Source of the DNA: Pseudolactococcus reticulitermitis
GTDB lineage: Bacteria; Bacillota; Bacilli; Lactobacillales; Streptococcaceae
Length of the DNA stretch: 64,000 nt
Assembly (NCBI RefSeq): GCF_002260845.1
Contig: NZ_BEDT01000001.1
Location: 248,001 to 312,000 of the forward strand
Direction: 5' to 3'
Part shown: in pieces, positions 2,255 through 62,628 of the stretch
Position numbering within the stretch: the stretch's first letter is position 1
How the letters are laid out: each line of letters begins with the position of its first letter
Notes under the pieces: model-generated
The model's database searches: none
The model's input: only the letters and a program-made list of their open reading frames with translations
Told to the model about the DNA's origin: nothing
Translations under genes and position numbers: made by a program

Positions 2255-3451
2255 TTACTCCTTAACTTTTGAAATTGATTTATTCATGTTCTTTATGCCC
2301 CGATGGATTGGAATAAGATATACCAGATAAATAAATAATACACATATAGTGATAGCCAGTAAAGATTGCCACCACAAGTTTAAAGATATTAATTTTATAT
2401 TATTAACTCTATTTAAATCAAAATTTATGTCTTTAATATATTCAAACAAGCAATATATTACATATAGAAAAATATCAATTAGCTTTGTAGTAATTATTGC
2501 TACTACCATTAAAGCAAATATTATTTCTTTCCTATTTTTTATTATGATCTCCTCCCCTTTTCCCTTAAGAAAAATACGTTTTAAAACTAATGAATTGGCA
2601 ATCATAGCTTGGCTACGTCTATTTTTACTATCTTCCATTTTTTCCAAATGCAGGGGTTGATCATTCAATACACTATTATTAAATTTATAAATATTGTCAA
2701 TATGTATACTATTCTCTTTGTTTTTTATTTGAGAATACTCTACTGATAAAATTTCATCATTGTCAATTTTTTTTAGTAACACATATTCTTTTTTATTAAA
2801 TTTAAAAACCATATAACTCGTATAGTATTTAACAGCTATAGAACGCACTCTAAAATAAACTACAACAAATATTAAAGTTACTATTGAAACAAAAAGGTAT
2901 AAAGCAACCTTCTGTTCTTTTTTTGCATATTCATAATACTTTTTTAATGTCGGATATTGAATCGCAACTATAGTATTATTCACATATAAATTTACAATTT
3001 TATTTTTTGATCGATAAGGTAATTCTATTTTATAATCTTTTACTGATTTTTTTTCTCTTTCCGGAAGCTTTTTGAATTCCTCCTTGTTTAATTCCCTATC
3101 TGAAATAGAATATAAAATGTCTTTGCTTAAATCAATATCCTTCTTATTTATATTAATTACGAGTGATGATTTATTAACTTCAGTTGTATAAAGATATCCC
3201 TTGTCATTAGGTCTGGTAATAGCATAAACATCAACTATATATAAACAAAATATAAAAAAGATAAATACAAAATTAATTATAATTCGTACAAATTTTTCAT
3301 AGTTACCTTCTAATATTTTTTCAATATCGTATTTTGAAAAATGGGAATAAACCTTGTAACAAAATAAAGCTACGGTCGAAATAATTGAAAAAACTTTCAC
3401 GATTGTTCCTAAATTTTCAACAACTTGAGAAACAAAATTTAATTTTTCCAC
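2255..3451 (-). CDS. unknown membrane protein inserted between trpF and trpB
   Basis: Encodes 398 residues and resembles no family I recognise. Predicted membrane segments lie near residues 12-32, 52-72, 185-208, 310-335 and 365-390. The loops between them are lysine- and asparagine-rich. The start is GTG at 3451; its AGGAG site lies inside the last codons of trpF, whose TAG is only 3 bases away, so it is probably translated by coupling to trpF. The gene stops 2 bases before trpB starts. The DNA is strikingly AT-rich (long A and T runs) compared with trpF and trpB, which suggests recent acquisition. Any role in tryptophan metabolism or transport would be a guess. Confidence 0.8.
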
Positions 3452-6176: not shown

Positions 6177-6971
6177 CTAATTTGCTAAAAAGTCTTTGAA
6201 AATCGTTTGAAATTGTTCATGTTCATCTATCATTAAGTTATGTCCTGCAATATCAGAAATGATTACCTCAACAGGCGTGAACTGTTTCGCAAAAAGTTGC
6301 TGTTGCTTGTAACCGACAACATTATCTTGCTTTCCTAAACAAAATACAGTTTGCACATTGAATGTTTTTGCCAATAATTCCTGTTCATTTGCCAAAGTAT
6401 AGCCTGTTTTTTGAAAATTCTCCAAATATTTCTCTTGTTCCTGAGTGACGGCTGTAAAGACTGAGTTTTGAAACAAAGCATAAGTCTTATCTGTTATAAC
6501 TGTTGCAAATGCTCTGAATTCAGCTTCACTTTCAGGATTTTCAGCATTTATCTTTTCATCAATCTGAACCACTTTTTCAGGTAAAATTCGATTACTTGAT
6601 TGAGCTGTCACAACTGGACAAAGTAAAAACAGTTTTATAATCTGATGCTCAAAATGTTCTAGTAATCCCAATGATAAATAACCGCCATAGGAATTGCCAC
6701 ACAAGATGAAGGGTTCATCTGCTACCGTAGCTTTGATAAATCGTGTCAAACGATGAACCATCTCATCAGCATTTCGTGAAATCATGCCTACATTTGACTT
6801 TCCCATACCCTCTAAATCAACATAAATGCGACGAAAGCCCGTTAAAGCGTCCCCAATAGTTTCAATATTTTCTGACCAAATGCGATGGTCAACACCAAAA
6901 CCATGGAGGAAGATGATAGGAATACCTTTTCCAATTTCTTTGTAGTATAAACTATTTTGGTAGTATGGCAT
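6177..6971 (-). CDS. alpha/beta-hydrolase fold protein inside the trp operon
   Basis: Encodes 264 residues of an alpha/beta-hydrolase. The oxyanion-hole motif HGFG follows strand 3, the nucleophile elbow is GNSYGG (serine near residue 94), and a late AGHNLMIDEH supplies the histidine. The acid is probably the aspartate of LGKQDNVVG. Substrate cannot be predicted; esterases, C-C hydrolases and lactonases share this pattern. An AAAGGAG site precedes the ATG at 6971. It lies between the GIY-YIG gene and trpD and is bracketed by a direct repeat of the trpD start, evidence that it arrived as a cassette. Confidence 0.9.
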   Translation of the reverse strand: MPYYQNSLYYKEIGKGIPIIFLHGFGVDHRIWSENIETIGDALTGFRRIYVDLEGMGKSNVGMISRNADEMVHRLTRFIKATVADEPFILCGNSYGGYLSLGLLEHFEHQIIKLFLLCPVVTAQSSNRILPEKVVQIDEKINAENPESEAEFRAFATVITDKTYALFQNSVFTAVTQEQEKYLENFQKTGYTLANEQELLAKTFNVQTVFCLGKQDNVVGYKQQQLFAKQFTPVEVIISDIAGHNLMIDEHEQFQTIFKDFLAN

Positions 6972-7096: not shown

Positions 7097-7567
7097 TTAG
7101 TTCATATTCAAACCATTAGCCGATGCATCTTTATTACCGGTTTGAATATGATAAGATTTATAATCTTTTTTACTTTTAGTTTCGAAATCTATAATTTCCT
7201 CATCAGATGTACTTTCTTCAAAATATTCAAGCACTTCAAAGGAAATTTTTTGAAAATTTTTTCCTTGGTGAAAATCTCGTAATTTTTCGCCTATTCTCCT
7301 TTGAGAATTATTACTATCTCTTTTGGATTCACTATCTGGGTTAAAGTAATTAATATACTGATTCCATCTACCGTATATACCTTTCATTCCGTAAACAGAA
7401 CCGACATATTTTTTACCATCTACATCGATAAGATAAACACCTTTTCTATTGATTAGATAATCCAATTTTTTATTGATTTGATCTTTTTTAAAGTCTTTCA
7501 ATAATTTATCTTTACCTTTTTGTTTAGGCGAAAGCTCACCAGGATTATTAAATATAATTCCTGTCAT
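7097..7567 (-). CDS. GIY-YIG nuclease-like protein inside the trp operon
   Basis: Encodes 156 residues. The segment from about residue 43 reads GVYLID, then KKYVGSVYG, then GRWNQY, the order of GIY, YIG and catalytic arginine in GIY-YIG nucleases; a later acidic helix (EEIIDFETKSKKDY) could carry the metal-binding glutamate. The N-terminus is lysine-rich. Its ATG overlaps the trpG stop (ATGA), with the ribosome-binding site inside trpG. The DNA is more AT-rich than trpG and trpE. It could be a solitary homing or defence-type nuclease; no target can be inferred. Confidence 0.75.
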   Translation of the reverse strand: MTGIIFNNPGELSPKQKGKDKLLKDFKKDQINKKLDYLINRKGVYLIDVDGKKYVGSVYGMKGIYGRWNQYINYFNPDSESKRDSNNSQRRIGEKLRDFHQGKNFQKISFEVLEYFEESTSDEEIIDFETKSKKDYKSYHIQTGNKDASANGLNMN

Positions 7568-8130: not shown

Positions 8131-9490
8131 TACTTTCTCCAATCTTGGTCATGGCTTTGACCTTGTTCAGGGTTTCCTGATACTCGTTTTCTGGGATGCT
8201 GTCAAAGACGATGCCTGCGCCTGCTTGTGCGTGTGCCTTGCCGTCTTTGAGCACCATGGTTCTCAGGGCGATGGCGAAATCCATGTCCGAGTTACTTGAT
8301 AAGTAGCCGATGGCGCCTGCATAGATGCCGCGTTTTGTTTTTTCTAACTCGTAAATGCGTTGCATGGCACGGATTTTCGGTGCGCCTGATACGGTGCCTG
8401 CTGGCAAGGTTGATTTGAGGGCGTCTAGACTAGACACGGTGTCCAAGAGCTCGCCCTTAACGACGCTCGTCAGATGCATGACGTAGCGGAAATACTCAAC
8501 TTCCATGTATTTGGTCACTTTGACCGTACCAACCTTGGAAATTTTGCCAATATCGTTGCGACCGAGGTCGACCAGCATGCGGTGCTCTGCGACTTCTTTT
8601 TCATCACCTAATAAATCTTTTGATAAGGCATCATCTTCTGCCTCATCAGTACCACGCGGGCGTGTGCCCGCAATCGGATTGGTCGTGACGACGCCATTTT
8701 TAACGGATACAAGGCTCTCAGGACTCGCCCCCATGATTTGATAATCGCCAAAATCTAGAAAATACAGGTAATTTGACGGATTAGTCAGGCGCAGATTCCG
8801 ATAATAGTCAAAGGGATTACCCGTAATCTGGCTCGTCAAGCGCTGGCTGAGAACGATTTGGAACATATCGCCATTTTTGATGTAGGTCTGCGCCTGCTCA
8901 ACCATCCCCATAAAATCAGCCTTTGCCGTATTACTTTTGAACGATAAAGGATTGAGTTTGACCGTTTCAAACTCATGTTTATGCGGCCGCGTCAAGTTTG
9001 ACAGCACCAAATCCATGGCTAATTGCTGATCAAGCGCCGAGCGTTCGCTATAAATATCTGCCTCAACAATGGTAATCTGCTCCTTTTTATGGTCAAAAAT
9101 CAAATAAGACTCATACAGAAAAAAATGCAAGTCTGGCGTCCCAATCACGTCCTCAGGAATTTGCCCGATATTTTCATAGAGGGAAATGGTGTCATAACTC
9201 ACAAAACCGATAGCGCCACCCGTAAACGGTAGGCTTGACGCCTCTGTATTTTTAACCGTCAGCTTCCCCAGATAATCGAGTGGATCACCCGTTTTGACCT
9301 GCCCATTATCCGTCAGCACCCCATTTTCAAACTTAATTTCATGCACAGGATTGTAGGCAATCATAGAATACCGCGAATTTTCCTTCTCCCGCGGAATAGA
9401 TTCCAAAATCAGCTTGTGTTGCAACTCCAAGCGTAAATACGCCAAAATCGGTGTGATAATATCTGCATTAATCGTTTTTTTTAAAGTCAT
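8114..9490 (-). CDS. trpE: anthranilate synthase component I
   Basis: Encodes 458 residues. It converts chorismate and ammonia to anthranilate. The N-terminal tryptophan-feedback motif appears as LILESIPRE. The chorismate-binding domain carries GTRPRGTDEAED, DLGRNDIGK and LPAGTVSGAPKIRAM. The start is set at ATG 9490: the longer open frame upstream is the T-box terminator hairpin read as protein. The ribosome-binding site is weak. It is the first structural gene of the operon. Confidence 0.96.
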   Translation of the reverse strand: MTLKKTINADIITPILAYLRLELQHKLILESIPREKENSRYSMIAYNPVHEIKFENGVLTDNGQVKTGDPLDYLGKLTVKNTEASSLPFTGGAIGFVSYDTISLYENIGQIPEDVIGTPDLHFFLYESYLIFDHKKEQITIVEADIYSERSALDQQLAMDLVLSNLTRPHKHEFETVKLNPLSFKSNTAKADFMGMVEQAQTYIKNGDMFQIVLSQRLTSQITGNPFDYYRNLRLTNPSNYLYFLDFGDYQIMGASPESLVSVKNGVVTTNPIAGTRPRGTDEAEDDALSKDLLGDEKEVAEHRMLVDLGRNDIGKISKVGTVKVTKYMEVEYFRYVMHLTSVVKGELLDTVSSLDALKSTLPAGTVSGAPKIRAMQRIYELEKTKRGIYAGAIGYLSSNSDMDFAIALRTMVLKDGKAHAQAGAGIVFDSIPENEYQETLNKVKAMTKIGESNDFIS

Positions 9491-9509
9491 AAACTTACGC
9501 TTTCTATAG

Positions 9510-9547
9510 AAAAAGTCCTCGACGAAATTGAACATTTCGTCGAGGAC
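9510..9547 (-). terminator. T-box leader terminator ahead of trpE
   Basis: A 14-bp perfect stem (9534-9547 with 9515-9528) is followed on the minus strand by TTTTT, 20 bases before trpE. It is the off-state hairpin of the T-box switch. Confidence 0.92.
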
Positions 9548-9801
9548 GTTATCACACGCGGTGCCACCTCAATTTGTAGCGAAAAAACCTATCTGAAATA
9601 GTCTTTCTCTATATCTCGTCTCCCTCAAGCAAGGGATTGTGCGATATCGGGCACCCACGTGATTCTTATCGTTTCGAATCAAGATTGAACTAAGTCTAAG
9701 TTAGCTCACACATCGCAGCCCATTCACGTGATCGAACTCTTGTCTCGCAATCACCGACAAGTCCCTGAAAGTCCTAATATCCCGCTACTTCTTCTGCTAT
9801 T
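9510..9801 (-). promoter_or_regulatory. T-box riboswitch, predicted tRNA-Trp specific
   Basis: The conserved T-box AGGTGGCACCGCGT is at 9556-9569 on the minus strand, just before the terminator that it can disrupt. Upstream is a long stem I. Its specifier bulge reads GAATGG, with the UGG tryptophan codon at 9722-9720. Uncharged tRNA-Trp should bind the specifier and antiterminator and allow transcription of all genes down to trpA, including the inserted ones. Folding was done by eye. Confidence 0.92.
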
Positions 9802-9807
9802 GTTTTA

Positions 9808-9836
9808 ATTTTACGATTATTCTGACAAGTTGTCAA
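9808..9836 (-). promoter_or_regulatory. trp operon promoter
   Basis: On the minus strand TTGACA (9836-9831) and TAAAAT (9813-9808) are separated by 17 bases, placing the start of the T-box leader near 9801. Confidence 0.9.
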
Positions 9837-9872
9837 GCGGAAAAAACTTATTTTTCAAAGTATTTTGAAAAA

Positions 9873-11981
9873 TTACTTCACCCGCAGCAAGCGAATGCCA
9901 TTCAAGGTCACGATTATCGTTGCGCCCATATCGGCTAAAATCGCCAGCCAAAGCGTCAACCAGCCTGGAATAACCAATAGCAAAGCAATGACTTTCAAAA
10001 TCAATGAGAAAGTAATATTTTGTTTAATCGTGCGTAGCGTCCTGCGGCTCAGTCTGACAATAAAAGGGAGTTTAGCCAAATCATCACCCATTAACGTGAC
10101 ATCCGCTGTCTCCAAAGCAGTATCCGTCCCTGCCACACCCATCGCGATACCAACATTTGCCAGTGCTAAAGCTGGTGCATCATTTACACCGTCGCCGACC
10201 ATGGCAACATGTTCAAATCTTCTTTGGAGGGTCTGAATCTCTTGTAATTTATCTGCTGGCATGAGCTCCGCCTTGACCGATGAAACCCCGACTTCTCGAC
10301 CAATCTGTTCTGCCGTAGCTTGATTATCTCCTGTCAGCATGACCGTTGTCTTGATGCCTAGCGACTGTAGCGCCTCTATAGCTTGACGACTGGTTGGACG
10401 AACCGTGTCCCGCATGGCAATCATGGCTAGAACTTGCTCACTTGTCCCAAAACAAATGACTGTTTTACTTTCTTGGTGAAATTTTTGATAGGTATCAGCT
10501 GTCTCTGAACTTAGCGAAAATAATTTCGAGCTACCGATAAAATAGGTCACACCTGACATATCACCTTGCACACCACGTCCAGTGAGTGATTTAAAATTCT
10601 CAATGGTAATCTTTGTTGCATCAATTCCTCGTTTGTGGCTTTTTGCTAGGATTGCTGAGGCAAGGGGATGTTGGGCATAGCTTTCCAAGGCTGATATTTT
10701 TTGAAGGACATCAGCTTCATCGAGTTGATTATCTACCACGACAAAGTCAGTTACTGTCGGCTGACCTTCTGTTAAAGTACCCGTTTTATCAAAGGCAATG
10801 GCTTGAAGTTTTCCGATTTCTTCTAAATAAATCCCTCCTTTAACCAAGACACCATGACGCGCAGCGTTGCCGATAGCGGATACAATAGAAACTGGGGTCG
10901 AAATCACTAGGGAGCAAGGGCAGCCGACGACTAATACGGACAAGCCTTGGTAGAGCCATCTTTGCCAGTCGCCACCGAAAAATAGGGGTGGCACCACGAC
11001 GATTAAGGTCGCGAGTAAAATGATAAATGGGGTATAAATTTTCGCAAATTTGTCCACAAAAGCCTGAGCTGGGGCTCGTTCGCCTTGTGCCGCTTCGACG
11101 AGCTGGATAATTTTCGCAAGGGTTGTATCTGTTGCACGCTTCGTCACTTGAACTTCAAGGTAGCCAGCCTCGTTTAGCGTTCCCGCAAAAACATCATCTG
11201 AGATTTTTTTATCAACAGGCAAGGCTTCCCCTGTAATGGCGGCTTGATTGACTGTTGAATTGCCTTTGATGACGACGCCATCCATGGCAATTTTTTGACC
11301 GGGTTTAATCAGCATGACATCACCAATTTGAATATCTTGGACGGCGATGGTTTGTTCAAGTTCATGACGCCGAATCGTTGCCACTTTTGGCGCTACCTTG
11401 ATCAAACTTGAAATGGACTGACGCGCACGGTCGCTCGCATAGCTTTCCAGCATTTCACTAATGGCAAAAAGGATGACGACGATCGCACCTTCGGCAAAAT
11501 CGCCAATCAAGGTCGCACCGATAATGGCAATCGTCATCAAGGTTGCCATGGAAAAATCGAGTTTAATGAGGTCTTTGAAGCCTTCTATAAACAGTTCATA
11601 GCCACCGATTAAGATGGCGACAATCAACAGAAGAGGTGTCAGAAAACCTGTTCCTCCCAAGGTCAACTGACTAATAAAAGCCAAAGCAATCAAAACTGCC
11701 GCAATTAATTGATTCCGATTTTCACGCCAAAAAGAAACCGAATCTTGGCTTTCATTGGCACTCATTTCCTCTTCTGGTGCAACTTTGATATGATCAAAAG
11801 CACCTGCTTGTTCAAGTTCAGCAATACTTGCCTGACCGGTAACCGTTAGTTTAGCAGCCCCATAATTCACTTTGGCCTCACGAACACCCTTGAGTGCTTG
11901 AACGTTTTTCTCAAACTTTGCTGAACAACTTGTGCAGGACAGTCCAGTCAGCCGATAGCTATTTGTTTCTTGATTAACCAT
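9873..11981 (-). CDS. cadA: heavy-metal P1B-type ATPase (Cd/Zn/Pb export)
   Basis: Encodes 702 residues, the length of CadA/ZntA pumps. An N-terminal heavy-metal-associated domain carries C16-T-S-C19. The transmembrane metal site is C354-P-C356, the phosphorylated aspartate is D398 in DKTGT, and the HP motif (YAQHPLA), TGDN and [10 protein letters not shown] follow. The CPC motif with a Cys-x-x-Cys domain and an adjacent CadC regulator indicates export of cadmium, zinc or lead rather than copper. Its start overlaps cadC by 8 bases. Copper specificity is disfavoured by the CadC-type cysteine set of its regulator. Confidence 0.93.
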
Positions 11982-19612: not shown

Positions 19613-20974
19613 CTAGCTATCTGTATCTATATTAAATTCTAAAATATCCCATTTCGTGTTGATTACTTTAATCATAGCTACAATTGACATTAAGACAAAG
19701 ATTGCTAATGAAAGTAACAGAGAAGGGAGCCAGATATTAATCCAAACCATGGTTTTATCAAACAATTGAGTTATTCTGACAAACATTAAGCTCAACACAA
19801 AATTACACGTCAAAGATATGATTAGGGTTGTAAATGAATAAATTAGAATTTCAAATTCTTTCTTTAAAAAAATATCTAAAGGTCTTAAACCTAAAATAAA
19901 TAATTGTTTGATTTCAAAGGTTTCTTTTTCTTGCAGTAACATCATCATACATATCGTATTTGCTAATGCAATAAGTATTGGCGCACTTAAAAAGACAACC
20001 ATATTCGAAGTTCTAGTTCCTGCATCGCCACCATCAGGTAAATCAATCAGTAGTGACGAAAATCCAGAAACAAATATACTGATAATTGTTATCGGGATGT
20101 ATACTTTTTTGAAAGTATCAAAATGCTCATTAATGCTATAAGTTGCTAAGTTTAACAAAGATAATCTAAATCTATTGGCTATCATATTGAAAATTCTAGA
20201 AAAGCATAATAAAATTATTTTGCCACTTACATTTATTAACAATGATATGGCAATTATTTCTAGGAAAATCAATAAAACGCTTATAGCACCGAAAGAACTT
20301 ATCCCCATTCTCTCTGGTAAAAGTGACAAGAAGTATGTCATGATAGATATATTTAAAAGTAGCATAAAGATCACTTTCAAATAATAAAATTTGTCCCTGT
20401 TTTTTATAGTTATATTTTCGATATTTTTTTGAATTTTATAGAATGTTCGCCTTGATCTCGTATAGCCACTATACAAAGTCACTATTGTAATGAGTAACAA
20501 TGTAATAAGAAAAGATTGGAACGAAAATCCGATCGTCATAAGGGGAAATTGTTGAGTTCCTTGGGCGCTAACAAGAAAATTATAAAAAGTTTGAGCAAAG
20601 GGAGTTGCTATAATAGAACCACCTATTGCACCTAATATACTGGCAATAGATAATTCTATACCTGATAAAATAGCAAGATACTCAGGTGTCATGCCCAAAA
20701 TAATTTGTACATTATTTTGTTGTCGTAAACCATTTAATATTTCTTTAACAGTATTTTTTAAAACGATTGGTACCATAATCCCACCAAATACTATTGGAAT
20801 AAAAAACAATTGGGTATTGCTTGACATGTCATCATTTACCAAACTACTATTACTAAAGTTAAAAAAATTAGTTAAGCAAATATTAATGACAAAAGCACAA
20901 GTCATAAAAACAGGGAGGGAAAAAAGCCATATTTTCCAAGAATATTTAAATTGAAGCCATGCTAGTGAGATCAT
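19613..20974 (-). CDS. ABC transporter permease, FtsX-like
   Basis: Encodes 453 residues with many hydrophobic segments: one near residues 15-37, one near 52-72, a cluster between about 105 and 175, and further pairs between 205-265, 295-315, 340-365, 375-400 and 415-440. This fits FtsX/MacB-type permeases of peptide or lipoprotein exporters. It starts 2 bases after the ATPase gene, so the two form an exporter pair. The DNA is AT-rich. Because the ATPase gene is frameshifted, the transporter may be inactive unless the shift is a sequencing error or bypassed. Substrate unknown. Confidence 0.85.
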   Translation of the reverse strand: MISLAWLQFKYSWKIWLFSLPVFMTCAFVINICLTNFFNFSNSSLVNDDMSSNTQLFFIPIVFGGIMVPIVLKNTVKEILNGLRQQNNVQIILGMTPEYLAILSGIELSIASILGAIGGSIIATPFAQTFYNFLVSAQGTQQFPLMTIGFSFQSFLITLLLITIVTLYSGYTRSRRTFYKIQKNIENITIKNRDKFYYLKVIFMLLLNISIMTYFLSLLPERMGISSFGAISVLLIFLEIIAISLLINVSGKIILLCFSRIFNMIANRFRLSLLNLATYSINEHFDTFKKVYIPITIISIFVSGFSSLLIDLPDGGDAGTRTSNMVVFLSAPILIALANTICMMMLLQEKETFEIKQLFILGLRPLDIFLKKEFEILIYSFTTLIISLTCNFVLSLMFVRITQLFDKTMVWINIWLPSLLLSLAIFVLMSIVAMIKVINTKWDILEFNIDTDS

Positions 20975-20975
20975 A

Positions 20976-21703
20976 TTATAAATTCCCCGCTATTTCATGA
21001 AGAAGTGAAGCTTCAGTCGGATTCGATAAAATATTTTGTATTTTTCCATCACGTATCACAACTGCCCGGTCAGTTCTTGATGCCATTTCAATATTATGCG
21101 TGACCATGATAACTGTTTTGCCTTGGTTGGTTATTTCTCTTAAAATTTCAAATACTTTTTCACTTGAAACTGAATCTAAGGCACCCGTTGGCTCATCTGC
21201 AAATATGATTTCGCAATCAGTTGCTAATACTCTGGCTATCGCAACTTTTTGTTTTTCCCCTCCAGAGAGAGAATCAATACTCGCCGTTGATTTTGGTTCA
21301 AAATTAATACTCTTAAGTAATTCATCAATTTGATGCTTATCAATTTTTTGATGGCTCAGTCTTAATTGTAAAGCAATATTTTCAAATACTGGCAGAGCAG
21401 AAATTAAATTGTATTGTTGAAAAATAAATCCGATTCTCTCCCTTCTTAATCTAGCCAATTTTTTTGCATTTAGCTCGTATATATTTTGAGCTTCTAAAAA
21501 GACACCCCACTTGTAGGCGTTGACAAACCAGAAATAATATTTAATAGTGTGCTTTTACCCGATCCAGATGGACCGACTATACTTAAAAACTCACCTTTGT
21601 TTACTTCAAGAGAAATATCATCTATTATTCTTATGATATTGTTCGACTTACCTAACGTCATTTCCTTGGTTACATTTTTGATGTTTATAATTGTACTGTT
21701 CAT
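20976..21703 (-). pseudogene. ABC transporter ATP-binding protein (LolD/MacB type), frameshifted
   Basis: From ATG 21703 (AAAGGGGG site) the frame reads through Walker [10 protein letters not shown] and then meets a stop at 21494-21496. In a second frame the protein continues ([31 protein letters not shown]) through the Q-loop, signature LSGGEKQK, Walker B IIFADEPTGALD and the H-loop VMVTHN to 20976. Adding one base in the GGGG run at about 21507-21510 would restore a normal protein of about 242 residues. Either this is a real pseudogene or phase-variable tract, or the assembly lost a G. The permease follows directly. Confidence 0.88.
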
Positions 21704-52704: not shown

Positions 52705-52708
52705 ATTT

Positions 52709-52738
52709 AAAAAAGCATTTGTTTGTGACAGGCTTTTT
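52709..52738 (+). terminator. menA terminator
   Basis: AAAAAGC (52709-52715) pairs with GCTTTTT (52732-52738), followed by ATTTT. Confidence 0.75.
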
Positions 52739-52755
52739 ATTTTGGCTTGAATTTC

Positions 52756-52850
52756 ATTTGTAGATTAAATTTGAGGGAAATTACGATAAAAATCAATTTG
52801 TAAGTTAAATTCGATGAAAAAATAGACTAAAATCAATTTGTAAGTTAAAT
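52756..52850 (+). repeat. 40-bp direct repeats over the promoter of the DUF4143 ATPase gene
   Basis: Copies start at 52756, 52796 and 52836 (third partial). Shared core is ATTTGTAAGTTAAAT; copies 1 and 2 both end in AAAATCA. The third copy overlaps the -35 region. A related inverted sequence, AACTTATAAATGAAAT, lies just past the -10 at 52875-52890. They look like operator sites. Confidence 0.85.
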
Positions 52851-52865
52851 ATGTTTAAGAATCAT

Positions 52866-52873
52866 GCTATAAT
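52866..52873 (+). promoter_or_regulatory. -10 region of the DUF4143 ATPase gene
   Basis: TGCTATAAT (from 52865) lies 31 bases before the ATG at 52905. The -35 position (about 52845-52850) falls in repeat copy 3 and is not a good match, which fits a regulated promoter. Confidence 0.7.
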
Positions 52874-52904
52874 GAACTTATAAATGAAATTGGAGGTAGA
52901 CAGA

Positions 52905-54137
52905 ATGATTTCTAGACCAAAATACTTAAGTAAAATTATCCCCTTTATCGATACAGAATTAATCAAAGTCATCTCAGGTGTTAGACGCTCTGGTAAATCT
53001 TTCTTACTTGAAGCGATTCGTGATCATATTCTCGCCCAAAACCCTAAACATCATATCATTGAGATTAATTTTGAAAAACTAGAATTTGAACCACTTCTCG
53101 ACTACCACGCTTTAAATGACTATTTAACTGATAAAATAGATGCAACATTACCCAAAAAATCTTACATTTTTTTGGATGAAATTCAAGAAGTAACTGGCTT
53201 TGAAAAAGTCATCAATTCATTGCGGGCGACATATCGCGAGCAAGTTGACATTTTCGTAACTGGTAGTAATGCCAAACTACTCTCTAGCGAGCTATCTACC
53301 CTGATTGCTGGCAGATACGTTGAGTTCGATGTCTATCCCTTTACTTTTGATGAATATCTAAGTGCTAAAAAACTGCACTATCCCGATGTTTCAAATACAG
53401 AAGCCTTCATGACCTACATCAATGACGGTGGTATGCCATTCATCGTGGCTCAAAACCTTCTGCCTGAGCAGCGGGATAACTATTTATCCGATGTTTATAA
53501 CTCAATTATTTTGAAAGACGTCATTGAGCGCAATCAAATTCGTGATGCTGACTTACTCAAACGAATTTATCGTTTTGCCATTGGCAATGTTGGCAGAATA
53601 TTTTCTTCGCTTTCTGTTGTCAAATTCCTAAAAAACGAACACATCAACACCTCAGTCGCAACAGTTAATAATTATATTGATGCTGGTGTAGATGCTTATT
53701 TCTATATCCCTGTTCGTAAATTTAACATGGAAGGTAAGAAATTACTCAAGACACAAGAAAAAATCTATACTGTTGATCACGGTTTAAGACAAGCAATTTT
53801 AGGGCGAAATGAACAGGATATTGAGCTTATTCTTGAGAACATTGTATTGCTTGAACTGAAATCAAGAGGTTACCAAGTGACTGTTGGCAGTTCAAATGCG
53901 CTTGAGGTTGATTTTATTGCTGAAAAAGTCGTAAATCATCAGTTGGAGAAACTCTATATTCAAGTCAGCTACCTACTTGCTAGCGCTGAAACTGCTAAGC
54001 GTGAATTTGCGTCTTTAGAATCAATCGCTGATAGTTTTCCTAAGTATGTTTTGACGCTTGATTCATTGTTGCGTGGTAATGATAAGGGGATTCAGCATTT
54101 GAATTTGGTGGATTGGTTGTTAAAAGATGATCATTAA
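52905..54137 (+). CDS. AAA-type ATPase with DUF4143 C-terminal domain
   Basis: Encodes 410 residues. Walker A is GVRRSGKS at 25-32 and Walker B YIFLDEIQ at 87-94; the sensor segment TGSNAKLLSSELSTLIAGRY follows. The C-terminal half is the DUF4143 region with a restriction-nuclease-like end (EVDFIAEK). Such ATPases are widespread and uncharacterised, often near mobile or defence genes. The ATG at 52905 has TTGGAGG upstream and is preferred over an ATG seven codons earlier. It is on the strand opposite to the neighbouring defence operon. Confidence 0.92.
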   Translation: MISRPKYLSKIIPFIDTELIKVISGVRRSGKSFLLEAIRDHILAQNPKHHIIEINFEKLEFEPLLDYHALNDYLTDKIDATLPKKSYIFLDEIQEVTGFEKVINSLRATYREQVDIFVTGSNAKLLSSELSTLIAGRYVEFDVYPFTFDEYLSAKKLHYPDVSNTEAFMTYINDGGMPFIVAQNLLPEQRDNYLSDVYNSIILKDVIERNQIRDADLLKRIYRFAIGNVGRIFSSLSVVKFLKNEHINTSVATVNNYIDAGVDAYFYIPVRKFNMEGKKLLKTQEKIYTVDHGLRQAILGRNEQDIELILENIVLLELKSRGYQVTVGSSNALEVDFIAEKVVNHQLEKLYIQVSYLLASAETAKREFASLESIADSFPKYVLTLDSLLRGNDKGIQHLNLVDWLLKDDH

Positions 54138-54243
54138 TTTTTGTTCGTCGTTATAAATATGAGTTAAACTGTACTGTTTTGTAAAAGTTTTTTCCAATAT
54201 AATGTTGCTTATTTTTAAGTAATATTTACTATTTTCGAATCCT

Positions 54244-56268
54244 CTATGACTCCAAATATTTATTTAAAATATCTCTAATCTGATTATCTTGTTGTTCATT
54301 AATATAGAGATTTTTCCCATGAGTAACTTTATCAATTAAATCTAACTCAGATTTGTCAAAATTTTCATCTTTCAATAAAATTTCGTATAACTCTGTAAAT
54401 AGATTCGGATCATATTTTTGTAACATACCTGAAATTGTATCTTCAAATTTCATATATTCTACTTCAATATCTTTTTTTTCAATCACAATAGAACCAAATC
54501 CAAATTTCTCATCAATTAAATCATTATGTTGCAAACTTTCCCAACAAATTTTACGTTTTGCATATTCAGTAACATTGATTACAGGTCGTTTTTCATCAAT
54601 CAAATGCTCATGAACACTTTTCGTCAAATCTTCAAATAGATATACAAGATTTGGTGTTACTTCTTGATTTTTCCAAATTTTATTAAAATCTATCATTAAA
54701 TCATGTATTTCTAACCAATAATAAAGATAAGCAATCGTGTAAGCATTTATATTCGCCTTATAGCTATTGTACCAATCAGCATTTTTAACAATCCTATCTA
54801 CCGTCTTGAATATGATAATATTAGCTATCTGTGTTTTGAAAAAATCATCATTTATTAAATAAGGCTGTTTTTTCCATATATCAATAATCCATTGTGTAAA
54901 TTCTCTAAAGGCTGTTACACCACCTTTAGAGGCAATATCTGGTCGTTGTTGATAAATATTAAAATATTTGGCAAAATCAGCTTTCTTGAATAATTGAGAT
55001 TTAGGATTTATTTTCTCAAAATTTTTCTTTTCAGCCTTAGATTTTTTATAAGTTTCCTGAGAATATTGACCTGCTACACGTTCATAATACCAATAAGTAC
55101 TATATGAATAGCCATCTAGTAATGGTGTTGGAATTTTCCTAGATAGACTTTCAATTTCACGATGGAATGGATGATTACTTGACAAATCAACTTCTGACAC
55201 CTTATTTTGAGAATTGGCATAATTGGAAATGTTCGCAATTAGCTCATCATAAATTTCATCTTTTAAAATCAAATTAAGTTTCATAGGAACAAATACTTTT
55301 GCTAGTTGTAATTCCGCCTTATCATTGATTAGCACATTCGCTAAACTTGCTGTCGTTTGCCCACCATTAACAATTTGTAAATTAGTAATTTGTGTCACTT
55401 TTTTATCGGAAATTTTTATGTCTGTACACGTTGCTGTGATACCATTATTATACGCAAAAAACTTATCCGGTTCTTTTAATATCGTCGCACGAATACCTTT
55501 ATTTACTTTACCACGTGTTTGCAGAAATGAGCGAATATTTCCTTCAATTAAGCGACTACCATATTTATCGTACAGTCTTGCAAGAACTGCACCATTGACT
55601 GAACACATAAAAGAACGATATTCAGTCGTTTCATTAGCTTGGATACCTGAAATTTCTTGATTTGAAAAATCTAATATTAGATCAACTTTACCACGTTTTG
55701 ATTTTAATAATTTTTCCCAAAAAACAATATCGTATATTTGAAAAGATGTCCTAATACCATTTATCTTTGTAGCATATAATGTGTCGAGACTGGCAACTTT
55801 TGACTTTTCAGTTAAAATAACAACTTTCAATCCTTCTAAACCGTTAAAATCATTGTGTTTCTCATCTCTATGTATGATTGAATCAGCAAGAGAATATCCC
55901 TCACTAGATTCTTCCCCACCTTCTAATACTTCATTAGCCTTTTCAAAGAAATTACTTGCTAATTTAAAGTAACGATCCGCAAGCGTTTTATCTAAGGATT
56001 CAATTTCATTATAATTTATTTTTGGAATAACAAAAAGTGTTAAAATGCCATCATTTTCATTATAAACGTAGCCATCAATCTGACAGCGTTGGTTTCGTGA
56101 TAAAGATTGTTCAAAATGCAGATATTCTGGATTCCCAATAATTTCATCTGCTTCAATCAAATCATCCGTTGTCTGTTTGAAAAATTCCTCAATAAAAGTG
56201 ACATTTACTAAAACACGATTTTTTTCGATTTCTTCTATAAATTCTTGATAAAAATCATTTATTGCCAT
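54244..56268 (-). CDS. AIPR-family protein (abortive-infection phage-resistance family)
   Basis: Encodes 674 residues. The AIPR core is clear: NIRSFLQTRGKVNKGIRATI, FFAYNNGITATCTDIKI and ITNLQIVNGGQTTASLANVL at about residues 245-315. The family is linked to lactococcal abortive-infection loci and to islands with restriction genes. An ATG at 56268 overlaps the DUF4420 stop by 10 bases. It is the last of five overlapping genes; its individual activity is not known. Confidence 0.9.
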   Translation of the reverse strand: MAINDFYQEFIEEIEKNRVLVNVTFIEEFFKQTTDDLIEADEIIGNPEYLHFEQSLSRNQRCQIDGYVYNENDGILTLFVIPKINYNEIESLDKTLADRYFKLASNFFEKANEVLEGGEESSEGYSLADSIIHRDEKHNDFNGLEGLKVVILTEKSKVASLDTLYATKINGIRTSFQIYDIVFWEKLLKSKRGKVDLILDFSNQEISGIQANETTEYRSFMCSVNGAVLARLYDKYGSRLIEGNIRSFLQTRGKVNKGIRATILKEPDKFFAYNNGITATCTDIKISDKKVTQITNLQIVNGGQTTASLANVLINDKAELQLAKVFVPMKLNLILKDEIYDELIANISNYANSQNKVSEVDLSSNHPFHREIESLSRKIPTPLLDGYSYSTYWYYERVAGQYSQETYKKSKAEKKNFEKINPKSQLFKKADFAKYFNIYQQRPDIASKGGVTAFREFTQWIIDIWKKQPYLINDDFFKTQIANIIIFKTVDRIVKNADWYNSYKANINAYTIAYLYYWLEIHDLMIDFNKIWKNQEVTPNLVYLFEDLTKSVHEHLIDEKRPVINVTEYAKRKICWESLQHNDLIDEKFGFGSIVIEKKDIEVEYMKFEDTISGMLQKYDPNLFTELYEILLKDENFDKSELDLIDKVTHGKNLYINEQQDNQIRDILNKYLES

Positions 56269-57164
56269 ACTCGATTATCCTCTAATTCAAACTCAGATAT
56301 TTCAGAAATTGTTAATTCATATTTATAACTTGGAATAGCTTTTGGTACATTAGCATGGTCAATAAATGGAAAATCATCAGAAATTCTGAAATAACTGACT
56401 TCTGAAAATTCATAGTTGAAAACATTATATATTTCCGCATTGTCGTAAGGAAACAGTCCAATTTCAAGTAATTTTTGTTGAAATAGCAGCAAACTTTCAT
56501 GATTTATAATCTTATTCAAAATATTTTTAATAAGTTGAAACAGATTCAAACTATTTTCATGTAATTCTGACGATTTTGTGACTGTCAAAATCGTTAAATA
56601 CATCTCTCTTGATAACTGATTATCATTCGAAATTTTTACTGTTTGTGAACTTTGTGTTTTAGTTTTAATTTCAAAAACTTCTTTCTCTAAAATAAAATCT
56701 TGATTTGCTTTTTCAGGACCAACCCATGATTTAATCGCATCATCTATACCTATTTTTTCAGATAGAATCTTATCAAGAAAATATAATTCTCCCCAAAAAC
56801 CACGAATCCATTGTTCATTCAAAATCATACGGGTTTTCTTAAATAGCTCCGTCCAATACTGAAAACGTTTTGACATAATTTCAAGTACTTCTTTTTCAGA
56901 CACTGCTAATTTGACATGATCAATAATATCTTTGACAAAAACATCAAAAATTTCCTGAGTCACTTCATCTTCGTCAAATAAAGAAATAAACAATCTGAAT
57001 TCATTTTCTCTTTCAAGAATACGACTAGCAATTTTGATTGTCTTAATTTCAAATTTTGGTTTTTCTTTAAAAATAAAGACTAAAGATTGTGCACCATTAC
57101 TATCTGTGCCACGAAAAGCTTTTATTGCTCCAATTTCTGGAATTATTTTAAATGAATCTTTCAT
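56259..57164 (-). CDS. PD-(D/E)XK nuclease-like protein, DUF4420
   Basis: Encodes 301 residues. The predicted active site is D156 (ANQDFIL), E165 and K167 (VFEIKTKT), preceded by the conserved E126 of GFWGELYFLD. This is the pattern of DUF4420 proteins, predicted to be the DNA-cutting subunit in systems with a Z1 helicase. Its ATG overlaps the Z1 stop (ATGA). Strongly AT-rich codon use. Confidence 0.88.
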   Translation of the reverse strand: MKDSFKIIPEIGAIKAFRGTDSNGAQSLVFIFKEKPKFEIKTIKIASRILERENEFRLFISLFDEDEVTQEIFDVFVKDIIDHVKLAVSEKEVLEIMSKRFQYWTELFKKTRMILNEQWIRGFWGELYFLDKILSEKIGIDDAIKSWVGPEKANQDFILEKEVFEIKTKTQSSQTVKISNDNQLSREMYLTILTVTKSSELHENSLNLFQLIKNILNKIINHESLLLFQQKLLEIGLFPYDNAEIYNVFNYEFSEVSYFRISDDFPFIDHANVPKAIPSYKYELTISEISEFELEDNRVWQ

Positions 57165-59767
57165 TCTAAATCCTCTTCCGTTTCATCTGCTGATGAAAAC
57201 AAGTCTAACTGTTCACCTGTAATCATTTGCTGCTGCATAACTGTATTTAACTTTGTTTTGTATGAAATAGTTTTTTCATCTGCTAATTCCGGCACACCTA
57301 AAGCAATAGCCCAGAAGATATTATCTTTATTCTTTTGATAAAATTTTTCTGTTTCAGTATCCGAATTTTTATTTTCTTTGTTAAAAGATAATTTTTCAGG
57401 GTAGATAATCACAAGAGGATTTCGTTCGTCTTCCCTAAATTTAGAAAAATAATCTTTTTCACTTTTAAATTCGTGAGATTCTTTTTGTTCTTCTGTTAAA
57501 GCAAATTTACCATCACCACTGGAACCCACACGAGAATTAGCAAAAGCGATAACTTCATGCTTAGAATTGTAACGAAAAGCTCGTTTTCTCGGCTTATCAG
57601 CTTTTGTATAGGCAATTTTCACATCAAATGTCTTAAAATGCTTCAAGGTTTCCGCTACAACTTGACTATTCAACTTATTAAAATTACCATATAAATAATT
57701 AGCTAATAATGCTTTAACCAATTCTTTATCTGCATTTTTCCATAAATGTGTTTCATCAAATCTTTCCTGATATTCAGAAATCCACGTTTCAACAGTTTGA
57801 CGATTTTGCTTCACTGACTTGACATCTAATTTTGTTGTTTCACGATAATCACCCGAAATTTTGACTGTCACTTCATGATCTCTGGCATTACGCATTTTAT
57901 TTCCCGCTGTAATTAATAATCTTACTTCATCAGCCTCAGCTTGTTTAATATAAATTCCGAATTCTTTTGGTGTTTGATGTTCATTTGCCATTCTCTTTAT
58001 TTGTTTTTTCAGATCTTCTGTTGCATCTAAAATTTGGCTATACCACTCAATAGATTGATTAGGCATATACAACTTGATAAGATCATCATAATTCGGACGA
58101 TAGCCAAACCACCGCCCCATTTGCATTAATGTATCATACATCAATGTATTTCTATAAAGATATGAGGTTGACAAACCTTCTAATGTTAAACCACGAGATA
58201 ATGCAAAACCTCCAACAGCAATTATCCTAGCACCATTTGGATAATCTTCATAATTAAATGACTTGTTTTTGGCGTTAATCACATCAACTTCAATTGCATC
58301 AATTGATTCCGAAAGTTGTTTTTGGACACTTTCAAAACTCTCAGCAATCTTAGGAAATTCTTTTTCAAAAAGTTCAAATAGTTCTACTTTAATCGGTTGT
58401 TCAGTTAGAATGTAATTCTTAATCTGAGTTTTTAATCTAAATACTTCTTCTGAAATCAATTCCTTTACTTGTTGCTGAATGTAATTCAAATGACTAACAT
58501 TGACAAGCATTGAACGATGTTTTTTCTTATCGCCACGTAAATCACGAATCGCATTCTGCAAAAAGAAAATTTTAATTGCTTCTTTCAATGACTCTGGCAA
58601 TTCCTCAATAATAAAATCTCCTCTTCGTTCCTTAGGAATAACGATTGGAATCTCCGTTTCTGCATCATCATTAGTATTCAAAATATGATGATATTCACCT
58701 TTTTCTGGAAAAATAGTTGATGCACCCATATAATTTGAAGGTGTTTTAAGCACCTGTATAAAATCACTCGGAAATAAATCATCTTCTTCTGTATGATCAA
58801 TAAATACATTGGCAAAAGGTGTTGCAGTAAATCCGACATAGGAAGAACGTTTAAAAAGATTTAGGATAGCACGAATACCTTTATTAATTGTTGTTGGACT
58901 ATCCGCATCTTTTGTATTAATCGTTGCATTGTCTGCCTCATCATCAATAAAAAGAACTGATTTCTCGATTTTGCCAAATCTTTTTATATCCTGCTTGTTT
59001 CCATTTTCAAGCCATAATGCCAAATTTTCCAATGATGTTTTATTTTTTTTAATTACTGCAACAATAGGCACTTGACCTAAATTAACTGGATTGGCATACT
59101 TTATAGAAAAATCTTTGTCTTTATTTGTGACAAAATATGATTGCTCCTTATTTCCAAAATCTGCAACTGTCCTTTTTTCAGATTTTTTTACTGAGGAAGA
59201 AATACCAGAAAAACCGTATTCTATACGTTCCTGTGTCTGACGACGTAATTTTTCTATTGTTCCAGTTGTTACAACAATCATATTATAGCCAGCATCCGCT
59301 GCTTTATTCATTAATGCGATAAAGTTTCCTGTTTTACCAGATTGAACATCACCAATGACCAAACCTTTTTTAGAAAAATCTTCTTTATCAAAAGGATCTC
59401 CAACATTATTCATTACCTTATCCATAGATGTTGAGATAGAATTAATAACTTTTAATGAATAGCCCTCAACATTTTCCAAATATTTATGATAAGCATCAAA
59501 TCGTTCAGTGCCACGTTCAAAACGGCTATCTACAAACCAGTTTGCATTTGGGTTACTAGTAAGAATCGTATCCTCATCAAGGGAAACTGATTTTTTTGTA
59601 TATATCCGATTAGAGAGTTCAACTAAACTCTTATCATCAAGTTGCCAAATTGCATTATATTGTTTCAAAATATTTTCAACAACCGAATATTCAGGATTAT
59701 CTTCTCCAACTGAAATTGCTGCAAGTGCAATTTCTTCATATTGAGCTATTTTTTCATAATCAATCAT
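57161..59767 (-). CDS. Z1-domain superfamily-II ATPase/helicase
   Basis: Encodes 868 residues. Walker A is GDVQSGKTGNF at 139-149, the DEAD-box-like motif II FIDDEADN at 273-280 and motif III GFTATPFAN at 312-320. The Z1 segment (GGFALSRGLTLEGLSTSYLYRN, then LMQMGRWFGYR) lies near 525-570 and carries the arginine-finger motif. Z1 proteins were defined by comparative genomics in restriction-like operons with MORC ATPases. It overlaps the MORC gene by 8 bases. It presumably translocates or remodels DNA for the nuclease. Confidence 0.92.
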   Translation of the reverse strand: MIDYEKIAQYEEIALAAISVGEDNPEYSVVENILKQYNAIWQLDDKSLVELSNRIYTKKSVSLDEDTILTSNPNANWFVDSRFERGTERFDAYHKYLENVEGYSLKVINSISTSMDKVMNNVGDPFDKEDFSKKGLVIGDVQSGKTGNFIALMNKAADAGYNMIVVTTGTIEKLRRQTQERIEYGFSGISSSVKKSEKRTVADFGNKEQSYFVTNKDKDFSIKYANPVNLGQVPIVAVIKKNKTSLENLALWLENGNKQDIKRFGKIEKSVLFIDDEADNATINTKDADSPTTINKGIRAILNLFKRSSYVGFTATPFANVFIDHTEEDDLFPSDFIQVLKTPSNYMGASTIFPEKGEYHHILNTNDDAETEIPIVIPKERRGDFIIEELPESLKEAIKIFFLQNAIRDLRGDKKKHRSMLVNVSHLNYIQQQVKELISEEVFRLKTQIKNYILTEQPIKVELFELFEKEFPKIAESFESVQKQLSESIDAIEVDVINAKNKSFNYEDYPNGARIIAVGGFALSRGLTLEGLSTSYLYRNTLMYDTLMQMGRWFGYRPNYDDLIKLYMPNQSIEWYSQILDATEDLKKQIKRMANEHQTPKEFGIYIKQAEADEVRLLITAGNKMRNARDHEVTVKISGDYRETTKLDVKSVKQNRQTVETWISEYQERFDETHLWKNADKELVKALLANYLYGNFNKLNSQVVAETLKHFKTFDVKIAYTKADKPRKRAFRYNSKHEVIAFANSRVGSSGDGKFALTEEQKESHEFKSEKDYFSKFREDERNPLVIIYPEKLSFNKENKNSDTETEKFYQKNKDNIFWAIALGVPELADEKTISYKTKLNTVMQQQMITGEQLDLFSSADETEEDLE

Positions 59768-61202
59768 TCAATTCTCCTTCAATTTTTTCTAAAATCGTTT
59801 TTTTATTTTGATAAACTTCAGTATTTTTTAGATTTTGCAACAATTTTTGTTTGCTAAATATATCGCTCTGAAAACTCATCAAGGTCATAATTTCTTCATA
59901 AACCTCGTCATCAGTACTTGATGAAACTTTTTCAACTTCCCTATCTTTACTTGCCATATCATAACGAATACTATCAAAAGGTATATTGTTTGATACTTGT
60001 TTGATAAATATCATCAAAAGTCGAGAATCTTGATCGGAAATATTTTCAAATAACTGTCGCAAAATTGGGTTATTTTGATTAATCTCATAAGAAACTTTTT
60101 TATCTTTTTCAAACCTATCAAATATATGAATTAAACCATCATTATTTCTTTTATTGCCACGATGTTTATAAACACGCTCTGATTTACCTATTGTCCTTGT
60201 GATAATTTCTTTAAGTTGGGTTTTAATACCTACTGGAATATTTAAGGTTGATTTCTTAACATCAATTTCCCAACTATCATCCATTGAATTTGGTAAATCT
60301 ATTCGAATTTTTGCTAAATTTGATAGTTCATTAGAACGAGCAACATTAAACCATTTTCCCCATGTGATAAGACGTCTATTTCTATAAATATAAAGTCCTT
60401 GATTAATGTTAAATTCATAGTATTTTTCTAAAAATCGTTTCTCTTCTTGTGATAGGCGATTTTGATAAGGGATAATATAAGGTTTAACTGTAATCCGCCT
60501 ATCAGAAAATCGAATTGATTCTTCTTCCAATGGCTGAGTTGCTTTATTTTTAGTGAAATATGGATCAACTGGTAATAATTGCCTACCGTTAAATTTAATC
60601 GCCAGATTTTTTTCTAAATACCGATGAAAAACAAGTGAAACATGTAAATCTGTTTTTGAAAGCAATTCATCAAATTGTCGCTTATCAGAAATCTTGTCAA
60701 ATTTCTCCCAAATCACCACCGTACCTGATTCAAAATTACTAACTGACTTCTCAATTAATATATTAGAAATATCTTCCCTTGATAATATCTTCAAAGTCCA
60801 ATCATTAGTTTTTGAAATAATATCTAAATCCCAAACAGCTCCTGACATTTCTCCATTTTCTTCGCAAGAAACAACCGTTAATTTTCGACACTGAGAAAAA
60901 GACGCCATTTTCAATCCTAATCCAAATCGTCCCAAGTCGTTTTTATGCCGCTCTTCTAAAATAGATTTAGAGCCATATTTCATAGCTGAAATTAATTCCT
61001 CTTCTGACATACCATAACCATTATCAATTATAGCGACATAGCGATTTTCATTTTCAAACAAAACATCAATATATTTCGCGTTTGCCGAAATAGAATTATC
61101 AATTATATCAGCTACTGCTGTTTCAAAAGTATAGCCAATGGAGCGTTGACTTTCAATTAAATTAGACGCATCTGGAACTAAAATTATTGTCTTATTCTCC
61201 AT
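59760..61202 (-). CDS. GHKL ATPase of the MORC/MutL-like type
   Basis: Encodes 480 residues. The Bergerat fold motifs are E27...D32-I-I-D35-N36, DNGYGM at 60-65 and GRFGLGLKMAS at 91-101, followed by an S5-like domain. Prokaryotic MORC homologues of this kind are described next to Z1 and methylase genes. The ATG at 61202 has AAGGAG 7 bases upstream and overlaps the methyltransferase stop by 11 bases. ATP-driven dimer clamping on DNA is inferred from the family. Confidence 0.92.
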   Translation of the reverse strand: MENKTIILVPDASNLIESQRSIGYTFETAVADIIDNSISANAKYIDVLFENENRYVAIIDNGYGMSEEELISAMKYGSKSILEERHKNDLGRFGLGLKMASFSQCRKLTVVSCEENGEMSGAVWDLDIISKTNDWTLKILSREDISNILIEKSVSNFESGTVVIWEKFDKISDKRQFDELLSKTDLHVSLVFHRYLEKNLAIKFNGRQLLPVDPYFTKNKATQPLEEESIRFSDRRITVKPYIIPYQNRLSQEEKRFLEKYYEFNINQGLYIYRNRRLITWGKWFNVARSNELSNLAKIRIDLPNSMDDSWEIDVKKSTLNIPVGIKTQLKEIITRTIGKSERVYKHRGNKRNNDGLIHIFDRFEKDKKVSYEINQNNPILRQLFENISDQDSRLLMIFIKQVSNNIPFDSIRYDMASKDREVEKVSSSTDDEVYEEIMTLMSFQSDIFSKQKLLQNLKNTEVYQNKKTILEKIEGELND

Positions 61203-62388
61203 CAAACAACTCCTTTTTCAAACGAATAATCTCTTTAAATATTTCAATCAGAACATCAACCACAATCGAATTACCAGCCATTTTATACAAATGTGTATTT
61301 GAAAAATACTTATCTCTTTTATTAGCTAAAATAAGATTTTCAAATTTTATTTCTGGAAATCCCATTAATAAAAAAGTTTCACGTGATGTTAAATAACGCA
61401 TTTTTGTAACATTTCCTTGTGGATCTTTGTCTACAATCACACCTGCATTAGGATTACGATCTTGCTTAGTTGTAATTGTATTAGTGAATTCTTCACTTAT
61501 TTGACCATTTACAACAAGCTGTAAATTTTCAGTTGCTATTCTTTGACGACTTGGTGTGAAATTAGGCTCAGCCAATTTTTCTTCTTCTGGAAATTTACCT
61601 AGACGCAAAAATTTAGCTAAATTCTTTTCTTTTGTAGATTTAAACTTATCCGGAATCTTACTAGCTACTTCTTCATGTGAAAATTTGTCTATTCTGACAC
61701 TCAGCATAAAAGTTCGACTGCGTTTTTGCGGTACACCAAAGTCAATCGCATTTAATCTTTCATAAACACGATTTTCATACCCCATTTTATTTAGTTCTGT
61801 TTGCCAAGTTTTAAAATTATCATTATGTTTTGGCGAATTGATCGCATTGACATTTTCCATCAGCAAGAATTTCGGAAGTATCTCCTTCTCATCAAACTTT
61901 TCTTGTAATATTCTTTCAACTTCCCAAAGTAAGCCACTCCGTGTTCCAGCACCTTTTTCAATACCTTTACTATCCTTATTTTGAAAAGTACTAGCCTGAG
62001 ATAAATCTTGACATGGAAAACTGTAAGTTAATAAATCTATATCATCAGGAATATCTTTCCCTTTAACTTTAGTAATATCACAAAGATTACGGTTCCGTTC
62101 AATCGCCCCATATAGGCGTTGTAATTTTTCTTCGTTCATTCGACTTAAAGTTTTTTCTTTCATTGGATTTTTTCCATCTGATGAAAGTGTTAAATTAGAT
62201 AATTTTTCTAAAATTTTTGGTTTTGAATATTTTGACGGCTCTTTATCTCCGTTATGCATTTTGTCATAGGCATAAATCGCATTTATATCCCATTCAATAG
62301 TATTTATAATTTCGTGTTCAATTCCTGAATCAAGCAATGCTTGCTTTTGTGCTCCAATTCCTGAAAACGCTTCTATAACTCTTAACAT
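61192..62388 (-). CDS. C5 cytosine DNA methyltransferase of the defence operon
   Basis: Encodes 398 residues. Motif I is EAFSGIGAQKQAL at 6-18, motif IV SFPCQDLSQ with catalytic C126, motif VI MENV at 177-180, motif VIII QKRSR at 221-225 and motif X AGNSIVV near the end. The target-recognition region lies between about 240 and 330; recognition sequence cannot be read. The ATG at 62388 gives the family start MLRVIEAFSG; upstream codons lack a ribosome-binding site. It leads the operon and would mark self DNA. Confidence 0.94.
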   Translation of the reverse strand: MLRVIEAFSGIGAQKQALLDSGIEHEIINTIEWDINAIYAYDKMHNGDKEPSKYSKPKILEKLSNLTLSSDGKNPMKEKTLSRMNEEKLQRLYGAIERNRNLCDITKVKGKDIPDDIDLLTYSFPCQDLSQASTFQNKDSKGIEKGAGTRSGLLWEVERILQEKFDEKEILPKFLLMENVNAINSPKHNDNFKTWQTELNKMGYENRVYERLNAIDFGVPQKRSRTFMLSVRIDKFSHEEVASKIPDKFKSTKEKNLAKFLRLGKFPEEEKLAEPNFTPSRQRIATENLQLVVNGQISEEFTNTITTKQDRNPNAGVIVDKDPQGNVTKMRYLTSRETFLLMGFPEIKFENLILANKRDKYFSNTHLYKMAGNSIVVDVLIEIFKEIIRLKKELFDGE

Positions 62389-62468
62389 ATTTTCTATTTC
62401 TTTCCAATCAACATAATTTTTAACATATATTAACAAAAAATTGAATTTTTCAAATATCTTTTTAAATA

Positions 62469-62477
62469 ATTATAACA
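62469..62477 (-). promoter_or_regulatory. defence operon promoter, extended -10
   Basis: On the minus strand TGTTATAAT lies about 80 bases before the methyltransferase ATG; a second TATAAT is 12 bases further up. The surrounding 62389-62628 is very AT-rich and holds no gene. Confidence 0.55.
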
Positions 62478-62628
62478 CATTCATTATATACTTTAGCAAA
62501 GAATTCCGTAATAAATATATAACCTTGATATACTTTCATAAAAAGTAATACTATAAATAAAATATACAAATTCTATTAAAAATAAAAGAACATGATTTAA
62601 ATAATCATCGCTCTCTTATAATAACTCA

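Follow-up and report, generated by a model that had tools for sequence, protein, structure and literature searches.

A methylase-bearing Mza-type operon in Pseudolactococcus reticulitermitis, a probable horizontally acquired restriction-modification system

The window, a 64,000-nucleotide stretch of Pseudolactococcus reticulitermitis DNA, carries five intact genes with open frames in succession on the minus strand at 54244-62388 (Table 1). The genes overlap by 11 bases (methylase/MORC), 8 bases (MORC/Z1), 4 bases (Z1/DUF4420) and 10 bases (DUF4420/AIPR). All five Pfam families are well over cut-off, the ResIII part of the Z1 protein being marginal. The methylase gene starts at an ATG, with a possible TTG extension to 62436; the MORC gene also starts at an ATG, and an alternative TTG at 61205 is possible. 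The GC content of the operon block is 29-33% (about 30%), compared with 39-47% on both flanks. The gene coordinates and Pfam matches, these GC values, and motif conservation across 98 complete loci (52 homologues for DUF4420) bear out the description given in an earlier note, namely, five overlapping minus-strand genes, each keeping its key motifs, in a block more AT-rich than its flanks. The AT-rich DNA ahead of the methylase gene is probably the promoter region, as judged from position only; promoter-like matches within this stretch show no excess over shuffled sequences.

Table 1. Features of the operon and of the variable site in which it lies
Feature	Position	Strand	Details
Variable site holding the operon and a DUF4143 ATPase gene	52705..62628		Flanks: UbiA-family gene, FAD-dependent dehydrogenase gene
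AIPR protein, MzaE homologue	54244..56268	-	674 aa; AIPR 3e-88; AIPR_N 5e-24; PADLOC MzaE 4.6e-61
DUF4420 PD-(D/E)XK nuclease (predicted), MzaD homologue	56259..57164	-	301 aa; DUF4420 1e-47; PADLOC MzaD 2.3e-20
SF2 helicase-like ATPase with Z1 domain, MzaC homologue	57161..59767	-	868 aa; Z1 2e-73; PADLOC MzaC 2.4e-99
MORC/MutL-type GHKL ATPase, MzaB homologue	59760..61202	-	480 aa; HATPase_c_3 2e-36; PADLOC MzaB 1.6e-71
C5 cytosine DNA methyltransferase	61192..62388	-	398 aa from ATG; Pfam DNA_methylase 1e-51
AT-rich intergenic stretch upstream of operon	62389..62628	-	Position only

The PCQ, ENV and RxR motifs of the methylase are conserved in the 98 complete loci, and its closest solved relative is 4dkj/8c56 (PDB match 4dkj, 2.5e-41), which we take to be M.MpeI-like. 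The GHKL boxes of the MORC protein are conserved in the same loci, and a late Lys is conserved as well. At the usual catalytic Glu position, the MORC protein has Asp in 97 of 97 sequences; MutL and MORC3 use Glu there as catalytic base. All SF2 motifs are present in the Z1 protein, of which GxVQSGKT, IDDEAD, TATP and QMGRWFGYR are conserved (98 complete loci); Walker A, IDDEAD, TATP and the DTxxQxGRxFG motif are invariant or almost so. Sequence searches of solved structures returned no relative of the Z1, DUF4420 or AIPR protein.

DUF4420 residues E125, D155, E164 and K166 (numbered without the start Met), which include the E164xK166 pair, are invariant among 52 homologues. The C-terminal half of the DUF4420 structure model (pLDDT 92.4) aligns best to DpnI (Z 6.7) and EcoRV (Z 5.0), both scores being modest. 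The two elements by which a PD-(D/E)XK fold is recognized, a conserved D-(D/E)xK site and a matching fold, are both found in this protein, which, as modeled, has an intact PD-(D/E)XK site within a fold resembling those of two restriction nucleases. Foldseek alone gave no significant match for the DUF4420 model or the AIPR model, and the structural likenesses described for both models rest on the VIA second look.

The AIPR model (pLDDT 85.6) offers a structural clue to a family for which sequence searches of solved structures found no relative. Residues 1-190 resemble PD-(D/E)XK proteins, with AF1548 the best (Z 9.3), followed by MspJI (Z 7.8) and HamA (Z 7.3), and with further likenesses to EndoMS, SduA and McrC; no conserved (D/E)xK pair was found in this nuclease-fold domain. 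Because the model points to a nuclease fold without the conserved catalytic pair, a structural or regulatory role of AIPR would be likelier than that of a toxic effector. Nearly all the invariant residues fall within residues 211-370, a middle domain that is weakly ParB/sulfiredoxin-like (PadC, Z 6.3; ParB-N, Z 5.9; Srx, Z 5.1). As profile comparison of AIPR with DUF262, ParB, DUF4420 and MORC gave no link, with the positive control, DUF262-ParB, itself weak (probability 18.6), sequence profiles give no backing to this likeness, which is a lead only.

These features bear on the idea that the operon causes abortive infection, in which it would sense infection and AIPR (or DUF4420) would damage host DNA or RNA so that the cell dies, with the methylase only blocking self-activation. 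The AIPR family name and the similarity of the protein to the AbiU model in PADLOC are consistent with this idea, as is the presence of two ATPases and a nuclease-fold protein, which suits a sensor-effector logic. However, an AIPR nuclease-fold domain devoid of the conserved pair has no obvious toxic activity, and being linked to a C5 methylase is characteristic of restriction systems, making abortive infection an unlikely explanation.

Methylation-guided restriction or defense, the reading preferred here, fits because the genes are co-inherited, no active site has been lost and the surroundings are a hotspot of restriction cassettes. A profile scan of GTDB genomes and viral contigs yielded 112 loci. 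In 80 GTDB loci, a sample ordered by likeness to a query that was itself derived from loci with a methylase nearby, the order MORC-Z1-DUF4420-AIPR is found on one strand in 76 and a C5 methylase lies within 3 kb in 76. As the four-gene order recurs in loci from many phyla, the arrangement is not due to chance. Median junctions in the GTDB loci, derived from the longest open frames, are overlaps of 4-20 bases. The four exceptions to the methylase linkage comprise two truncated contigs, a contig ending 1.4 kb downstream and a locus with methylases 4.7 kb away. The position of the methylase varies among loci, being upstream on the same strand, downstream on the same strand, or on the opposite strand. 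The genes are co-inherited, answering in the negative the concern of the earlier note that they might be scattered in relatives.

A separate search for MzaC, made across a different class, identified 8 genomes; a C5 methylase is located nearby in all 6 loci fetched and in L062, and one MzaA-bearing locus from this search (L171) includes both a methylase and a Vsr gene. A copy of the operon on a Thalassospira plasmid is also accompanied by a methylase. Vsr genes are present in 73 of the 98 complete loci, and none was seen in the window operon. In two E. coli mza loci (L177 and L178), no methylase is present within the approximately 24 kb shown, suggesting that methylation guidance may be dispensable in some branches. 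The E. coli stretch read for dcm does not include that gene, and a cytosine methylase is present there in a prophage. In both E. coli loci, an IS421 element is located between two short frames at the place of mzaB (L177, 7888-10730; L178, 7877-10728), and mzaB appears to be split by the insertion in both.

Pairwise distances of the four core genes correlate at r 0.75-0.86, compared with r 0.42-0.50 for methylase versus core distances (98 loci, the kinship of loci being uncorrected in both), and p was 0.001 in all Mantel tests against Z1, the minimum attainable with 999 permutations. Given this difference, the four core proteins can be read as a fixed machine and the methylase as a more freely exchanged component. 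Defense independent of methylation would push this separation further: the four-gene core would recognize structures in phage DNA or intermediates of replication, with the methylase as an accessory or a passenger. The methylase-free E. coli loci accord with such a view, and so does a methylase whose position and phylogeny are much more variable than those of the core, but the near-universal presence of the methylase across distant phyla and its partial co-divergence with the core (Mantel r 0.50, p 0.001, kinship uncorrected) argue against it and make it quite improbable.

The genomic site, which fits methylation-guided restriction, is one where restriction cassettes vary between genomes. The operon lies between the FAD-dependent dehydrogenase gene and the DUF4143 ATPase gene, the latter adjoining the UbiA-family gene. 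In the sister genomes, the same site is either empty, as in L045, where the dehydrogenase and UbiA genes are only 110 bp apart, or holds other cargo: type I restriction genes with RhuM (L043), a C5 methylase and a nuclease (L042), an AAA/REase pair (L041), a MutT-like gene and a type IV PLD-helicase (L039 and L040), a C5 methylase and a GHKL ATPase (L038), or a metabolic gene only (L037). The cassettes at the site in sister genomes thus include restriction systems of type I, type II and type IV. In addition, Z1 is rare: among 12 genomes of the genus it occurs in one, among 59 relatives in 3, and among 398 members of the phylum in 10. The state of the site in sister genomes and the rarity of Z1 support horizontal gain of the operon into a restriction-cassette hotspot. 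The same rarity within the genus and the low GC content might suggest an island that has decayed or fallen silent and is no longer active, but this is hardly credible, as none of the five frames is interrupted, each catalytic motif that was checked is preserved, and rarity is compatible with horizontal gain.

Beside the operon, the AAA_14/DUF4143 ATPase gene (52884-54137, plus strand) matches the PADLOC candidate PDC-S01 (1.8e-148), and a broken copy is present at the same site in L040. At this hotspot in L038, a different GHKL ATPase gene overlaps the C5 methylase gene, forming another ATPase-methylase pair (9010-11440). Elsewhere in the window, a low-GC gene for a 398 aa protein with membrane-like stretches and no Pfam match (2255-3451, minus strand) lies between trp genes resembling trpB and trpF. 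The trp gene cluster also includes an alpha/beta hydrolase (6177-6971) and a protein of 156 aa whose match to the GIY-YIG nucleases falls below threshold (7097-7567, minus strand). Among housekeeping genes, a low-GC permease-like gene of 453 aa with no Pfam match (19613-20974, minus strand) adjoins an ABC-ATPase-like frame (20976-21458).

Gene content, intact motifs, conserved order, near-universal methylase linkage and site variability are the observed basis from which we infer a defense function, its self/non-self logic and all the biochemical steps. Overall, the operon is probably an ATP-dependent restriction-modification system that belongs to the Mza superfamily and was gained horizontally. 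Its mechanism is proposed by analogy with CglI/NgoAVII, which likewise joins a C5 methylase and a nuclease to an SF2 ATPase bearing Z1. The C5 methylase would mark host sites and thereby protect them, while the MORC and Z1 ATPases would assemble on unmarked incoming DNA and move along or remodel it, enabling the DUF4420 PD-(D/E)XK subunit to cut the unmarked DNA. AIPR would be a DNA- or nucleotide-binding subunit for assembly or checkpoint (gating), and most likely not the main nuclease. Functional data on a methylase-bearing Mza member were not found in the literature.

A broader reading joins the methylase linkage to the AIPR model. The Mza core might generally be the restriction half of a methylase-guided system, in which case methylase-free mza operons of the E. 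coli type would be exceptional and may rely on a methylase of the host, and AIPR might consist of a nuclease-dead PD-(D/E)XK domain and a ParB/sulfiredoxin-like nucleotide switch that permits DUF4420 to cut. This broader reading is possible though doubtful. The MORC ATPase of Mza and its relatives is related to silencing proteins of eukaryotes, and no account of how these systems tell self from non-self was found in the literature; the near-universal linkage of a C5 methylase across phyla would be a direct and testable answer to this question, and the operon, compact with its five genes, would be well suited to testing it. Specialists might make use of the methylase linkage and of the lead on the AIPR fold.

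Mza (mzaABCDE), a name used in RefSeq annotation, is an experimentally validated defense system with the sigma factor MzaA (Gao 2020, as cited in PMC9523054). In PADLOC, the MORC, Z1, DUF4420 and AIPR proteins match MzaB, MzaC, MzaD and MzaE, a connection absent from the earlier note, and the homologues are in the same order in both systems. Whereas Mza has the sigma-70-like MzaA, the window operon has no MzaA and is led by a C5 methylase instead. The sole MzaA-model match in the genome, on another contig (C2:4360-5067), covers the sigma-70 part only and is probably a housekeeping sigma factor. In a Z1 tree, three MzaA-bearing Mza reference systems cluster together and the window Z1 lies outside their clade.

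A putative defense system reported in 2022 has a core of Z1, a PD-(D/E)XK DUF4420 protein and a cytosine methylase, to which type II adds AIPR, with MORC associated (PMC9523054). This system is widespread, is reminiscent of mzaABCDE with about 20% identity to mzaBCDE, and mostly has no MzaA (PMC9523054). All five families of its type II form are found in the window operon; the associated putative transcriptional regulator reported for it was not seen here. The third MORC operon type of Iyer 2008 combines MORC, an SF2 helicase with the motif DThhQXuRhFG and an E-D-ExK nuclease, in neighborhoods where cytosine methylases are frequent, and AIPR is named there as common in restriction-modification operons (PMC2292703). 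The precedent of Iyer, Abhiman and Aravind for grouping MORC, Z1 and methylase genes, to which the earlier note appealed, is thus real, and the window operon is an instance with no difference in kind: its MORC protein, the Z1 residues YDTLMQMGRWFGYR, which match the helicase motif, and DUF4420 E125/D155/E164/K166 are the corresponding elements.

ATP-dependent restriction has been proven for CglI/NgoAVII, in which a C5 methylase and a nuclease accompany a Z1-bearing SF2 ATPase, and translocation has been proposed (PMC4267653; PMC5737866). The window operon shares with it the C5 methylase, the Z1-bearing SF2 ATPase and a separate nuclease. However, the CglI/NgoAVII nuclease is of the PLD type with a B3 DNA-reading domain, and that system has no MORC or AIPR, whereas Pfam finds no PLD domain among the five window proteins, in which the candidate nuclease is the DUF4420 PD-(D/E)XK protein. 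The operon had been taken for a unit with little description, a view that does not hold, as it corresponds to the methylase-bearing form of Mza, published as a putative defense system (PMC9523054) and having a validated relative. On the evidence of its sequence, the operon is a further example of a known arrangement rather than a new kind of system.
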